Assembly (NCBI GenBank): GCA_030692515.1 | Contig: JAUXZS010000020.1 | Coordinates: 1 to 64,000, forward strand | Reading direction: 5' to 3' | Source of the DNA: Bacteroidota bacterium | GTDB taxonomy: Bacteria > Bacteroidota > Bacteroidia > B-17B0 > Aurantibacillaceae | Length of the DNA: 64,000 nucleotides | Translations under genes and position numbers: made by a program | Shown: piece by piece, positions 3,748 through 7,284 of the stretch | Numbering within the stretch: position 1 is the stretch's first letter | Layout: every line of letters starts with the position of its first letter | The notes under the pieces: model-generated | The model's database searches: none | What the model was told of the DNA's origin: nothing | What the model saw: the letters and a program-made list of their open reading frames with translations, nothing else

Positions 3748-3777
3748 TTGTCTAAAAGTTCAAAATTGATATATTTG
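3748..3777 (+). promoter_or_regulatory. Bacteroidota-type promoter of the XRE/defence operon
   Basis: TTG at 3748-3750, a 19-base spacer, and TATATTTG at 3770-3777 match the Bacteroidota -33/-7 promoter (TTG-N19/21-TAnnTTTG). Transcription would start near 3784. That makes it unlikely that the TTG at 3748 is a start codon, although the reading frame is open from there. Confidence 0.7.
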
Positions 3778-3807
3778 ACTAAATATGACAAGTCAATACC
3801 ATTCAAA

Positions 3808-4095
3808 TTGAATACCCTTGGAGATAAAATAAGACAAGCTCGTGAAAGCCAAGGCTTGCTTTTGCGGCAGGCAGCTGCTTTTCTTGAAGTGGATACCGCT
3901 TTAGTTAGCAAACTTGAGCGTGGCGAACGCAGACCACAAAAAGAACAAGTAATAAAATTGGCTGAATTCCTTAAAATTAAACCGGAGGAATTACTTGTGC
4001 TATGGATGGCAGATAAAATCACCGATTTTATAACTCAAGACGAATTAGGCGTTAAAGCATTGGATTTGGTTAAAAAAGAATTTAGCAAAAAATGA
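3808..4095 (+). CDS. XRE-family helix-turn-helix regulator
   Basis: A DNA-binding regulator of the XRE/Cro-C1 fold, resembling controllers found next to Bacteroidota restriction and defence genes. The HTH spans about 55 residues from TLGDKIRQARESQGLLLRQA through SKLERGERRP, followed by a helical tail (LLVLWMADKI) common to this subfamily. The frame is open from a TTG at 3748, but that codon lies in the predicted promoter. The TTG at 3808, giving a protein beginning MNTLGDKIRQ, fits the promoter and my recollection of family starts. An 8-codon leader (ATG at 3785) ends in TGA overlapping this TTG. The next gene begins 7 bases downstream, so it probably controls the operon that follows. Confidence 0.85.
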   Translation: MNTLGDKIRQARESQGLLLRQAAAFLEVDTALVSKLERGERRPQKEQVIKLAEFLKIKPEELLVLWMADKITDFITQDELGVKALDLVKKEFSKK

Positions 4096-4102
4096 AGCTA
4101 CA

Positions 4103-5215
4103 ATGGAAGCAAAAAACATTAATATTATTCATATAAATCAAATGATTAATTCTGCTATTCAGCAGTCTTCGGATGGATCTTCAATAAATATACCAACCGA
4201 GGAAGCGGAAAAAGTAAAGGAATTTTTGACTTCAATTGATACTAATATCGATCGGCTGAAAATTCAACATGCCTTTATTAATAACCTTGGAAATAGCCAA
4301 AGGTTAGCGGCAAAGTACTTTTCTGATTTGATTATTGAATTAAAATCCCATGTTGTAAAATCACAAGCAGAGCTAAATAAGGATAAGCCTTGGGCTTACC
4401 TGTTTACTACTGAATTAGAAGACATGAAGCCACTAAAAGTCAGAATCATTGACTTTTTAATTATGGTTTATGAATGTGCTAATGATACTAAAATTATACA
4501 CGAATACTTTAAAAGTCTATTACAAGTGAGTTTTGATGAATACGAAAACTTTCAAAACAAAAACTTTTGGGGTTATATTAAAACAGACCACTACAGGACA
4601 ATTATCTACGATGTGTTTTTGAATATATCTGCGTATTTAGCTAAAAACGAGAGAATAGAAGAACTTAGCTCGCTAATTAATTCAAGTTATCAAGTGAAAT
4701 GTATTACTGGTTCAGGTTCATCTGATCCACATGTTGAATATAAAACTGTTTCATTTGTTTATTTCAATATGCCAGTTATTTCTATCAACGATATTTATCA
4801 TAGACAGCACAACAATTTAATAGACTGGGATCGTAGAAATTTATATACCGAAACTATTCATGGACTTAACAATGAAAACAAGTCTGTGTCGTTCAATGAT
4901 ATTATAAATATAGATGTTCTACTATATTTTATTTCATTATTTAAATACGCTGAAGGAAAGTCCACTACAGTTTGGGTTCCTCACACCTCACCAATGCGTA
5001 AAGACAACACCTCGGAATTAATGCTTAAATGTACATCTCAGGCATTTTTCAGTAGGGTCATTTCTATTTTTGGAGTTATAGATGTTACTTCATTCAATAC
5101 CATATTACCGAAAGTATTAAAGCTTAAGCAGGAGTCTGATGGAGCGTATGAAAAATATAATTTACCAGAAAGTGATTTCGCTCTCTATTATCAATATATA
5201 AACACACAACTGTAA
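4103..5215 (+). CDS. Unknown protein with N-terminal NSxIQQ motif, candidate defence component
   Basis: A 370-residue protein with no domain that I recognise. Residues 7-30 read NIIHINQMINSAIQQSS..., a pattern shared with the next gene (INVQSMNNSVIQQGSS). In both proteins it precedes a helical stretch (EEAEKVKEFLTSIDTNIDRL here). The remaining 300 residues look globular and mostly helical, with a conserved-looking HNNLIDWDRRN segment in the middle and no transmembrane segment. It starts 7 bases after the XRE gene and overlaps the next start by one base (TAATG), so it is translationally coupled. From the neighbourhood it is probably a sensor or scaffold in an abortive-infection operon; this is inference. 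Confidence 0.75.
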   Translation: MEAKNINIIHINQMINSAIQQSSDGSSINIPTEEAEKVKEFLTSIDTNIDRLKIQHAFINNLGNSQRLAAKYFSDLIIELKSHVVKSQAELNKDKPWAYLFTTELEDMKPLKVRIIDFLIMVYECANDTKIIHEYFKSLLQVSFDEYENFQNKNFWGYIKTDHYRTIIYDVFLNISAYLAKNERIEELSSLINSSYQVKCITGSGSSDPHVEYKTVSFVYFNMPVISINDIYHRQHNNLIDWDRRNLYTETIHGLNNENKSVSFNDIINIDVLLYFISLFKYAEGKSTTVWVPHTSPMRKDNTSELMLKCTSQAFFSRVISIFGVIDVTSFNTILPKVLKLKQESDGAYEKYNLPESDFALYYQYINTQL

Positions 5216-5847
5216 TGAATTTAGAAGAAATTAAAAAGCAACGTTTCCTATTTCTAAAGAAAGCATACGAAGTTACCAAAGGTGATCCTTCATATATGTT
5301 TAGTATGTTTGAACTTGGAAAAGAATTAGAATTTGATTCAGATTTGTCAAAACGAATCGCACAGTATTTAATTAATGAAGGGCTTTTGGAAGCAAGGGCT
5401 TTGGGTGGGACGATTGGAATTTCCCATGCAGGTGTTTTAGAGGTAGAAGAAGCCTTGTCGAATCCTAACAAACCAACCGATCATTTTCTACCGGTAAATA
5501 TTATTAACGTACAGTCTATGAATAATTCTGTTATTCAACAGGGAAGCAGTCATTCTTCACAAACAGTTAATATTACATCAAAAAACATAAATGATTTAAA
5601 GAACTTCATTTCAGAGCTAAAAGGTTCTATTGATAAATTGCAGTTGGAATCTGTAAAACACAGTGAACTTTTATCTGAAATTGCTACTTTAGAAGCGCAA
5701 TCAAATTCACCGAGACCAAAGGTTTCTATTATAGGAGAAACACTTGTCACCATCAGATCCATATTAGAGGGTGTTGCTGGAAACATAGCCACTCCATTAT
5801 TTCAAACGGTTTTACCGCAGTTAATCGCTGCATATACGGGTAGCTAA
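5215..5847 (+). CDS. Winged-helix-like protein with NSxIQQGS motif and hydrophobic tail
   Basis: A 210-residue protein with three parts. Residues 1-85 resemble a winged helix-turn-helix of the kind found at the N-terminus of effector-associated proteins (FELGKELEFD...YLINEGLLEARALGG). Residues 95-120 carry INVQSMNNSVIQQGSSHSSQ, matching the N-terminus of the upstream protein. Residues 123-165 form a likely coiled coil, and 172-208 are hydrophobic and helical (TIRSILEGVAGNIATPLFQT), possibly membrane-active. It overlaps the upstream stop by one base and is followed 10 bases later by the HEPN gene. Similar NSxIQQG segments occur in AbiTii-like proteins as I recall them. The role as a phage-response component is inferred. 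Confidence 0.75.
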   Translation: MNLEEIKKQRFLFLKKAYEVTKGDPSYMFSMFELGKELEFDSDLSKRIAQYLINEGLLEARALGGTIGISHAGVLEVEEALSNPNKPTDHFLPVNIINVQSMNNSVIQQGSSHSSQTVNITSKNINDLKNFISELKGSIDKLQLESVKHSELLSEIATLEAQSNSPRPKVSIIGETLVTIRSILEGVAGNIATPLFQTVLPQLIAAYTGS

Positions 5848-5857
5848 AAACATTAAA

Positions 5858-6685
5858 ATGGCGAACTTATCTTATAGTGAGAAGAAAAGGCTTGAAGTAT
5901 TCCTCGATATGGGCGGAGGATATGTGTTGGATTTTAGCAATAATAAATTGCAAAATTTCGTGCATGATGCGATTGGCGTAGATATATACAATGCCAAGTA
6001 CGATAATGGCGGGAGTGCTTCAAAAGCCAACCGAATTCGAGGTGTTTGGGATAAAGAAACTGATTATCAAGTTGGATTGCTGATTGAAGCCTTTATTAAA
6101 TACTGGACTGAATTTATTGGTGGGGACTCAATTAGTGATGAGCAATACAAATCACTAAAATCATGTGAGGAAATTGCACATAAATTGAAATCTGAATCAC
6201 TTGGCGCACAAATTCAGGTAATTCAGGCAACCTCTGACGATATAAACTTTCATAAGCTCGCAAAGCAAGTAAGAGAAGCTATTGAAAGGAATGAACCGGA
6301 AACCGCATTAGATAGATTACATACATACACGGTAAAATTTGTTAGGGAGTTATGCGATAAACATAGAATAGCATATGACAAAGACAAACCTCTTCATAGC
6401 TTTTTTGGAGAATACGTTAAACACCTTTCAAAAAGTGGTTTGATAAAATCTGTAATGACTGAACGTATCTTAAAAACAGCCATCTCAAATTTGGAAGCCT
6501 TTAATGATGTTAGAAACAATCAAAGTTTTGCTCACGACAATTCAATTCTTAATTATCACGAGAGTTTATTGATATTTAAAAACATATCAAGTATTGTAGA
6601 GTTTATTAATTCAATTGAAGAACCGACTGTTCAGACAGCGAAGGCGGTAGATAAAAACTCATTTGAAGAGGACTTACCATTTTAA
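5858..6685 (+). CDS. AbiJ-like abortive infection protein, predicted HEPN RNase
   Basis: A 275-residue protein. Residues 1-90 resemble an AbiJ N-terminal domain (VHDAIGVDIYNAKYDNGGSA...KANRIRGVW). Residues about 135-250 resemble the Abi_C domain of the HEPN superfamily. HEPN ribonucleases use an RX4-6H motif, and here R219-NNQSFA-H226 fits it exactly with Asn after Arg. Infection-triggered RNA cleavage is therefore the likely role. The last residues, EEDLPF, closely resemble the C-terminal tip of bacterial single-stranded DNA-binding protein, which is unexpected (see findings). It is the last gene of the four-gene operon and starts 10 bases after its neighbour. The domain call is fairly sure; the trigger is unknown. 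Confidence 0.8.
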   Translation: MANLSYSEKKRLEVFLDMGGGYVLDFSNNKLQNFVHDAIGVDIYNAKYDNGGSASKANRIRGVWDKETDYQVGLLIEAFIKYWTEFIGGDSISDEQYKSLKSCEEIAHKLKSESLGAQIQVIQATSDDINFHKLAKQVREAIERNEPETALDRLHTYTVKFVRELCDKHRIAYDKDKPLHSFFGEYVKHLSKSGLIKSVMTERILKTAISNLEAFNDVRNNQSFAHDNSILNYHESLLIFKNISSIVEFINSIEEPTVQTAKAVDKNSFEEDLPF

Positions 6686-6900: not shown

Positions 6901-7284
6901 ATGGAAAGTATCAATTTAAATCAGTCAATCAAACCTACATTAAATCTTCTAAAACTAACATTTGGCATAGTTCCTATTGTTGCGGGTTTAGATAAATTCA
7001 CTAATCTACTTACCAATTGGGAACAATATGTTCATCCAAGTGTTGCAAGTATGTTACCTATTTCAGCATCTGCATTTATGATGATCGTTGGAGTTATTGA
7101 AATTGTAGCCGGAATAATAGTATTAAAGAAAACCGAGATAGGTGGTTACATTGTTGCGGCATGGTTAACATTAATAGCACTTACTCTTTTGGCAAGTTTT
7201 AAATTTGTGGATGTGGCAGTTCGTGATCTTGTTATGGCAATTGCCGCTTTTTCAATGGCTCGCATAGCCAAATTTGTTAAATAA
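6901..7284 (+). CDS. DoxX-like small membrane protein
   Basis: A 127-residue integral membrane protein with four predicted transmembrane helices: about 15-30, 50-75 (SASAFMMIVGVIEIVAGIIV), 80-100 and 105-125. Size and pattern match the DoxX/MauE-like family, whose members are linked to redox or quinone-associated stress. The helix boundary sequence FGIVPIVAGLDKFTN near residue 20 is typical. It is preceded by a candidate ECF-sigma promoter matching that of the next gene and forms a cluster with a cytochrome c and the sigma factor. The biochemical role is not established for the family; membrane topology is clear. Confidence 0.75.
   Translation: MESINLNQSIKPTLNLLKLTFGIVPIVAGLDKFTNLLTNWEQYVHPSVASMLPISASAFMMIVGVIEIVAGIIVLKKTEIGGYIVAAWLTLIALTLLASFKFVDVAVRDLVMAIAAFSMARIAKFVK

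Follow-up and report, generated by a model that had tools for sequence, protein, structure and literature searches.

The stretch analysed here, a 64,000-nucleotide window (positions 1 to 64,000, forward strand, of contig JAUXZS010000020.1 from a Bacteroidota bacterium), contains a gene at 5858-6685 for a predicted HEPN effector of the Abi_C family. We find that this protein of 275 amino acids (aa) bears at its C-terminus a conserved peptide of the type that ends single-stranded DNA-binding protein (SSB), a finding that we hold to be close to certain. Positions 6647-6685 (+) encode residues 264-275 of the open reading frame (ORF), VDKNSFEEDLPF, followed by the stop codon. A preliminary description of the window had remarked on the SSB-like ending EEDLPF, and translation, homologues and a census of such endings against a shuffled control all confirm it. 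The resemblance to the bacterial SSB C-terminal peptide (SSB-Ct), which reads DDDIPF in E. coli (PMC5872125) and EDDLPF in a RecJ crystal, extends to the acidic residues, the usually hydrophobic residue at position -3, the proline, the terminal phenylalanine and the disordered tether. The difference is that here the tip sits on a HEPN protein without an OB fold.

Conservation of the tail and distribution of its ending

Thirty-six homologues were compared (L and G numbers denote our loci and genomes). They come from searches of the phylum (matches in 21 of 395 genomes, nine with both domains, one of these split), of the order (2 of 87 genomes) and of viral contigs (12 loci), together with a contig from a metagenome-assembled genome (L004), one phage record, and plasmids. 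Of 148 matching plasmid records, 18 were taken, hand-chosen to avoid near-copies; the remaining ones listed are mostly near-copies or match the C-terminal part alone. Dropped before counting were the window itself (L005), loci repeating a gene, place or contig already present (L006 for L004, L037 for L022, L332 for L038), a gene cut by a contig end (L043), a broken frame (L296), and loci with the N-terminal domain only or a partial match (L025-L036, L047-L049). L022 is the downstream piece of a split gene. The L004 protein is 88% identical to the window protein, and L006, from a genome of the same family (G058), has neighbours as in L004.

The expectation that homologues would conserve the last six residues held in part: 19 of the 36 end in PF and two more in another final Phe, and 15 have no tail. 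Among the 19, position -3 is Leu in seven (EEDLPF, EDDLPF, DDDLPF, WEDLPF twice, INDLPF, SDELPF), Val in five (LDDVPF, VDDVPF, DDEVPF, DDDVPF twice), Ile in four (CEDIPF, DETIPF, DESIPF, DLEIPF), and Phe, Thr and Ser in one each (DDTFPF, EDDTPF, IDGSPF). Pro thus precedes Phe in 19 of the 21 extended, Phe-ending C-termini, and Asp or Glu stands at -4 or -5 in 19/19. The extension in tailed homologues is 12-25 residues, and untailed ones stop 1-8 residues past the core. Most homologues from genomes of this phylum and from beta- and gammaproteobacterial plasmids keep the tail. Those without it are five from alphaproteobacterial plasmids, five from viral contigs, one each from plasmids of Geobacillus, Salmonella and Paraburkholderia, one from a Ruminococcus phage and one from a genome of this phylum.

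Between tailed proteins, the tip outlasts the sequence that leads to it. In pairs whose cores are 30-45% identical (50 pairs), identity is 0.13 in the linker and 0.62 in the last four residues; the values are 0.13 and 0.61 at core identities of 45-55% (103 pairs), and 0.40 and 0.59 above 70% (23 pairs). L007 and L011 have cores that are 100% identical, with linkers and tips that differ, and both end in PhiPF (DDEVPF, DESIPF; Phi, hydrophobic residue). In the AlphaFold2 (AF2) model, residues 256-275 have predicted local distance difference test (pLDDT) scores below 50, with tail blocks at 32-37, as in a disordered tether. Because tailed homologues keep the tip while the linker drifts, a functional SSB-type peptide is well supported.

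The ending is also rare in the host: across its genome of 4.33 Mb, [DE][DE]PhiPF followed by TAA or TGA, searched as a DNA pattern, occurs at two genes, the Abi_C gene and a DUF3127 gene whose protein ends GDNDDLPF (L070, G000:C32, stop at 73519). A census of 80 genomes of the phylum finds the pattern at 147 places in 74 genomes; 143 of these were translated, the other four being three Abi genes, recognised by position, and one SSB. ORFs of at least 100 aa account for 103 of the 143, vs 5 of 65 places for PhiFP, a shuffled ending of matched composition, in an equal number of genomes; a reversed-pattern control gave 50 places, a count made on untranslated places. The PhiPF ending is thus more than chance, and it is mostly that of SSB-like and DNA-metabolism proteins. 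The 143 comprise 56 SSBs, 23 DUF3127-like proteins, 4 DnaB helicases, 38 frames under 60 aa, taken as chance, and 22 others, with the SSB, DUF3127 and DnaB classes assigned by phmmer against nine census proteins and confirmed by Pfam for three DUF3127 proteins and one DnaB. Some DnaB replicative helicases of the phylum carry an SSB-like tip (L085 and three more, e.g. DDDDDFPF), and among the 22 remaining proteins are two of the ERF annealing type, three B-family polymerases, one RusA, one VapE-like protein and several effector-type proteins. One caveat is that the census pattern calls for a TAA or TGA stop, two acidic codons and a -3 codon whose middle base is T, and therefore passes over endings like DETIPF or LPY.

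These data also bear on the idea that the ending arose by chance or was inherited neutrally. The tailed homologues do share ancestry, and four changes on the core tree suffice to account for presence of the PF tail, vs 12.2 for shuffled labels. L016 (Agrobacterium, EDDTPF) forms a long branch of unsure placement in an otherwise untailed group, and its tail may be a separate gain. Linker identity, however, is near random while the tip persists, and long ORFs with the PhiPF ending far exceed those of the shuffled control. We find the neutral explanation scarcely credible.

The HEPN core

The assignment of the 275-aa protein to the Abi_C family of HEPN proteins is supported from several sides. 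Pfam Abi_C matches residues 181-250 with 38.4 bits, vs a curated cut-off of 24, and the R-N-x5-H pattern is present in 36/36 homologues and invariant in two alignments (A1, 12 rows; A3, 10 rows). Confidence in the AF2 model is modest (mean pLDDT 76.7, predicted template-modelling score 0.46, 10 sequences). When the model's residues from about 127 to 256 are compared by VIA-align, the best matches are HEPN structures (Z 11.5, 10.5, 10.4 and 10.3), headed by the sacsin HEPN domain (3o10, root-mean-square deviation (rmsd) 2.9 over 118 residues); further HEPN matches are 2hsb (Z 10.5), HepT (6m6w, 10.3) and the HEPN part of AbiA (8oz7, 9.5). For helical bundles, Z scores below 13 count as weak, and a Foldseek search with the whole model stayed empty at E <= 0.001, so the HEPN call rests jointly on the fold, the Pfam match and the motif R219-N220-x5-H226. 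Ribonuclease (RNase) activity and a role in abortive infection are predicted by analogy with the family.

The preliminary description had called the protein AbiJ-like. Its HEPN part agrees with the above; the AbiJ assignment is unsupported, as a PADLOC search of the protein returned no model at E <= 1 (the presence of an AbiJ model in that library is unconfirmed). Searches of NCBIfam gave nothing above the cut-offs, and a sequence search of the PDB gave a chance-level match only (E 0.66). An OB-fold SSB domain was not found in the protein: Abi_C alone passes its Pfam cut-off, and the model is helical, without strands. The N-terminal domain is modelled well (mean pLDDT 91.4) and is joined to other C-termini in L025-L034. 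It has no confident family or fold match, the Foldseek search being empty here too. A CARD-like fold was rejected for this domain, since the most pertinent match, 9frr (Z 5.4, rmsd 3.4, 87 residues), is not the top row and lies below the trust level.

Compared with the Abi_C family at large (PF14355), the protein shares the Pfam match above cut-off, the HEPN fold and the R-N-x5-H motif, and defence-type neighbours are frequent too; it differs in its ending. Thirty Abi_C loci were fetched, 8 of them belonging to this subfamily. Among the 21 others with ends listed, none ends in PF, and three end in NEPFD or NEPFN.

Possible functions of the tail

We think it probable, from the sequence comparisons, that the tail is an SSB-tail mimic that docks the HEPN effector on SSB partner proteins. 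In the Deinococcus RecJ crystal, the phenylalanine of the SSB-Ct peptide EDDLPF lies in a deep hydrophobic pocket, with an aspartate near a lysine, and the site is described as similar to those of RNase HI and other partners (PMC4846377). The tip of L004 is exactly this EDDLPF; the window protein differs by Glu for Asp at one position, and its final DLPF equals the four residues observed in the pocket of RecJ. Binding of DinG is reported to be abolished when E. coli SSB-Ct carries F177C (PMC11981726). RecJ is present in the host. On this model, the C-terminus would be a short disordered tether with a mimic of the SSB tip (acidic residues, a usually hydrophobic residue, Pro and terminal Phe), and the tip would most probably dock in the SSB-tail pocket of genome-maintenance proteins of the host, for example RecJ, RecO, PriA, RecQ or RNase HI. 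The docked effector would be held at the SSB partner network and would read it out. Phage replication would make much single-stranded DNA (ssDNA), SSB or phage SSB-binding proteins, so that pocket occupancy would change, and the change might free or concentrate the HEPN dimer, leading to RNA cleavage and arrest of the cell. Such gating by pocket occupancy seems to us the likeliest logic, but it is a tentative proposal with clearly less than even prospects. Competition with SSB and sensing of displaced partners, which the preliminary description put forward, are likewise tentative. More generally, because distant relatives keep the tail, the data suggest that the predicted defence protein plugs into the DNA-repair network.

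A number of observations weigh against docking on SSB partners. The preliminary description had assumed a match to Bacteroidota SSBs ending in DDLPF. In this host the canonical SSB ends SAGLPY, and two further short SSBs are tail-less; the classical tip is found instead on the DUF3127 protein (NDDLPF), to which extent the assumption survives. A point in favour of docking is that Leu occupies position -3 in 54 of the 56 census SSBs, in 7/9 Abi tails of the phylum and in 0/9 proteobacterial plasmid tails (Fisher p 0.002, uncorrected for kinship and with three viral-contig rows left out), and that E. coli SSB has Ile there; but this pattern is confounded by phylogeny, as 8/9 of the plasmid tails fall in one clade. 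Again on the opposing side, two sister homologues end in WQDLKF and WNDISF, two others have Thr or Ser at -3, and one of the latter, IDGSPF, is weakly acidic. The 15 untailed homologues, which include L288 within the tailed proteobacterial clade, imply that the core can work without a tail. Six 4Fe-4S proteins of the census without an evident link to ssDNA (L173, L176, L180, L181, L184, L189) end in [DE][DE]FPF, so that not every such ending belongs to the SSB network. Finally, the loop of the HEPN motif, residues 223-229, has pLDDT below 50 in the AF2 model.

Two points about the hosts belong beside these. That the Abi tail is an exact copy of the host's own SSB tail finds no support here, given the GLPY end of the canonical SSB. 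The hosts of the variant tails DLKF and DISF (G280, G111) have SSBs ending in DDDLPF, or in NDLPF and DDLPF. Across the phylum, DUF3127 proteins often bear an SSB-like tip, as in the 23 census cases.

The chief rival to docking is to read the ending LPF of the window protein as a degron, recognised by ClpXP or a similar protease, that would keep the effector low until a phage disturbs proteolysis. In Streptococcus mutans UA159, the LPF ending of SsbA suffices for degradation by ClpXP, and an 'Abi C family' protein of about 25 S. mutans strains, AFM81543, is named among LPF-containing proteins (PMC5143411). This paper contains the nearest prior remark that we have met: AFM81543 resembles our protein as an Abi C family member with an LPF motif, and differs in being discussed as a case of ClpXP recognition (the two were compared by description only). 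According to the same paper, however, the motif is not used by ClpXP of E. coli, S. gordonii or S. sanguinis, nor in S. mutans GS-5, OMZ175 and V403, although GS-5 has the Abi C protein; and LPY is the sole tolerated substitution among those tested. In our set, 12 of the 19 PF-ending Abi homologues lack a C-terminal LPF, and the acidic residues persist, whereas a degron would need no more than LPF. We therefore regard a degron as unlikely.

Alternatively, the tail could act in cis, folding back so as to block the basic surface with which the HEPN dimer would bind RNA. The tail is indeed acidic and mobile, and a weak contact of an SSB tail with its own DNA site is mentioned in PMC5928155. But the AF2 model leaves the tail undocked, with the low block scores given above, which is weak evidence against a cis role; a purely acidic tail would need no kept terminal Phe; and 15 of the 36 related HEPN proteins have no tail. 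Action in cis appears quite improbable to us.

The tail might also be a bait, such that phage recombinases or replication proteins that bind SSB tails would bind it and switch the effector on. Sak4, a phage recombinase, depends on the NDYPPF tail of the SSB of its phage (PMC5928155), and AbpAB is triggered by phage SSBs, which are also cited as triggers of Hna, Nhi, Retron-Eco8 and Hachiman (PMC10732053), with activation of Retron-Eco8 by phage SSB described also in PMC12887533. Conservation of the tail across two phyla nevertheless fits a ligand common to all hosts better than phage proteins, which evolve fast, and we give the bait only a small chance of being right.

Gene surroundings and other tailed effectors

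The Abi_C gene is the last of a tight plus-strand cassette (Table 1), in which it follows, in order, a gene for an XRE regulator, a 370-aa ORF and a 210-aa ORF; adjacent genes are 7 bases apart at the first joint, overlap by 1 base at the second and are 10 bases apart at the third. The 210-aa ORF is probably co-transcribed with the neighbouring cassette genes. Matches to the 370-aa ORF were found in 3 of 296 genomes, its own included, the other two being distant, and in none of the plasmid records searched. A promoter scan gave 19 sites vs 15.7 in shuffles, and a terminator scan 7 terminator-like sites vs 1.7, none of them between the Abi_C gene and position 7000.

Table 1. Features of the Abi_C gene, its protein and the upstream cassette genes
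Feature	Position	Strand	Basis
Abi_C HEPN protein gene, 275 aa, ending FEEDLPF	5858..6685	+	ORF; Pfam PF14355, 1.4e-9
N-terminal helical domain, residues 1-118, with GYVLDFS...SKAxRxR motif	5858..6211	+	AF2 model
HEPN domain, residues about 127-256	6236..6625	+	VIA-align matches to HEPN structures
Predicted HEPN RNase motif R219-N220-x5-H226	6512..6535	+	Homologue alignments
Variable disordered linker, residues 255-269	6620..6664	+	AF2 pLDDT; linker identity
SSB-Ct-like tip EEDLPF, residues 270-275, Phe last before stop	6665..6682	+	Translation, homologues
XRE-type helix-turn-helix (HTH) regulator, head of cassette, TTG start uncertain	3748..4095	+	PF01381, 4.3e-12; PADLOC capH, 8.5e-11, and other HTH models
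370-aa ORF, upstream, rare, without confident family	4103..5215	+	ORF, Pfam search
210-aa ORF, upstream, C-terminal part weakly like PADLOC PDC-M14B/AbiTi	5215..5847	+	ORF, PADLOC

At 7 of the 17 tail-bearing loci whose surroundings were read, DNA methyltransferase genes lie beside the effector gene or a few genes away on the same strand: type IIG in L004, followed by GajA and GajB (Gabija), Eco57I-type in L007 and L011, IIG-like in L008 and L009, BglII-type in L013 and type I in L020/L253. The calls for L011 and the BglII-type endonuclease rest on record annotation, and for L250-L252 and L254-L256 the neighbours were assigned largely by eye. This raises the possibility that the tail contacts a restriction-modification (R-M) or other defence protein encoded alongside. 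Yet the R-M neighbours differ from locus to locus, and no methyltransferase was recognised at the other 10 loci (judged partly by eye) nor any R-M gene in the window operon; a partner encoded alongside is very unlikely. No constant genomic partner was seen across the 17 loci, and an effector found in such varied contexts favours a universal host ligand. In one genome (G145), a Ymh-family HEPN gene (L255 10627-11535) is found some 3.6 kb away from the Abi gene with its tail.

SSB-like tails also occur on other effector-type proteins of the census. A deoxyribosyltransferase/TIR-like protein (L247 5942-6796; PADLOC TIR effector, 1.2e-7) ends WEDDLPF, and all three members matched over at least 90% of its length are tailed, the census protein counted (L247, L344 and L372 from 2001); the other tails are YDDLPF (71% identical, same phylum) and DFDEIPF (39%, the alphaproteobacterium Tritonibacter). 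An extended Ymh-type (TIGR02391) HEPN protein (L245 4861-5964; PF09509, 9.4e-32) ends DDDELPF. Both proteins that match well beyond the Ymh domain, itself included, are tailed, the second (L368 2001-3125) being from Alkalihalophilus, of the Bacillota, with 43% identity over 268 residues, the ending EYVDLPF and an N-6 DNA methylase gene downstream. A caspase-domain protein (L244 5019-6428; Peptidase_C14, 2.2e-12) ends ESDDLPF, and an ORF without known family (L246 3-893), just 5' of SIR2 and HerA genes, ends KDDLPF. Against a general rule of tailed effectors stand three results: only one of four caspase homologues is tailed, the census protein counted, the three from plasmids being untailed; the census protein alone is tailed among the Ymh ends in the matches listed (8 of 10); and no partial relative of the deoxyribosyltransferase-like protein is tailed among the matches listed (25 loci fetched). 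We offer, as a conjecture with somewhat less than even prospects, that SSB-type tails are a recurrent wiring of bacterial immunity, gained separately by unrelated effectors that share the SSB network as a monitored hub and would be both tethered and triggered through it. The effectors concerned would be the Abi_C HEPN, the extended Ymh HEPN, the deoxyribosyltransferase/TIR-like and caspase-like proteins and the ORF beside SIR2-HerA.

AbpAB, Hna, Nhi and Retron-Eco8, which phage SSB sets off, likewise tie defence to the SSB/ssDNA machinery (PMC10732053, PMC12887533); those systems are reported to respond to phage SSB, whereas here the effector itself bears an SSB-like tail. Among the matches listed from the open-access literature, none, to judge by its listing, proposes that Abi/HEPN proteins, or defence proteins of other kinds, carry an SSB-type tail. 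Both parts are known; within these searches, their combination and its recurrence appear to be new.

As to how Abi_C/HEPN effectors sense infection, a kept SSB-type tail points to the partners of SSB as a candidate sensor. Should it dock there, effectors with such tails and the systems that phage SSB triggers would meet at a single monitored hub. The tail would also be a simple sequence flag for further defence effectors.
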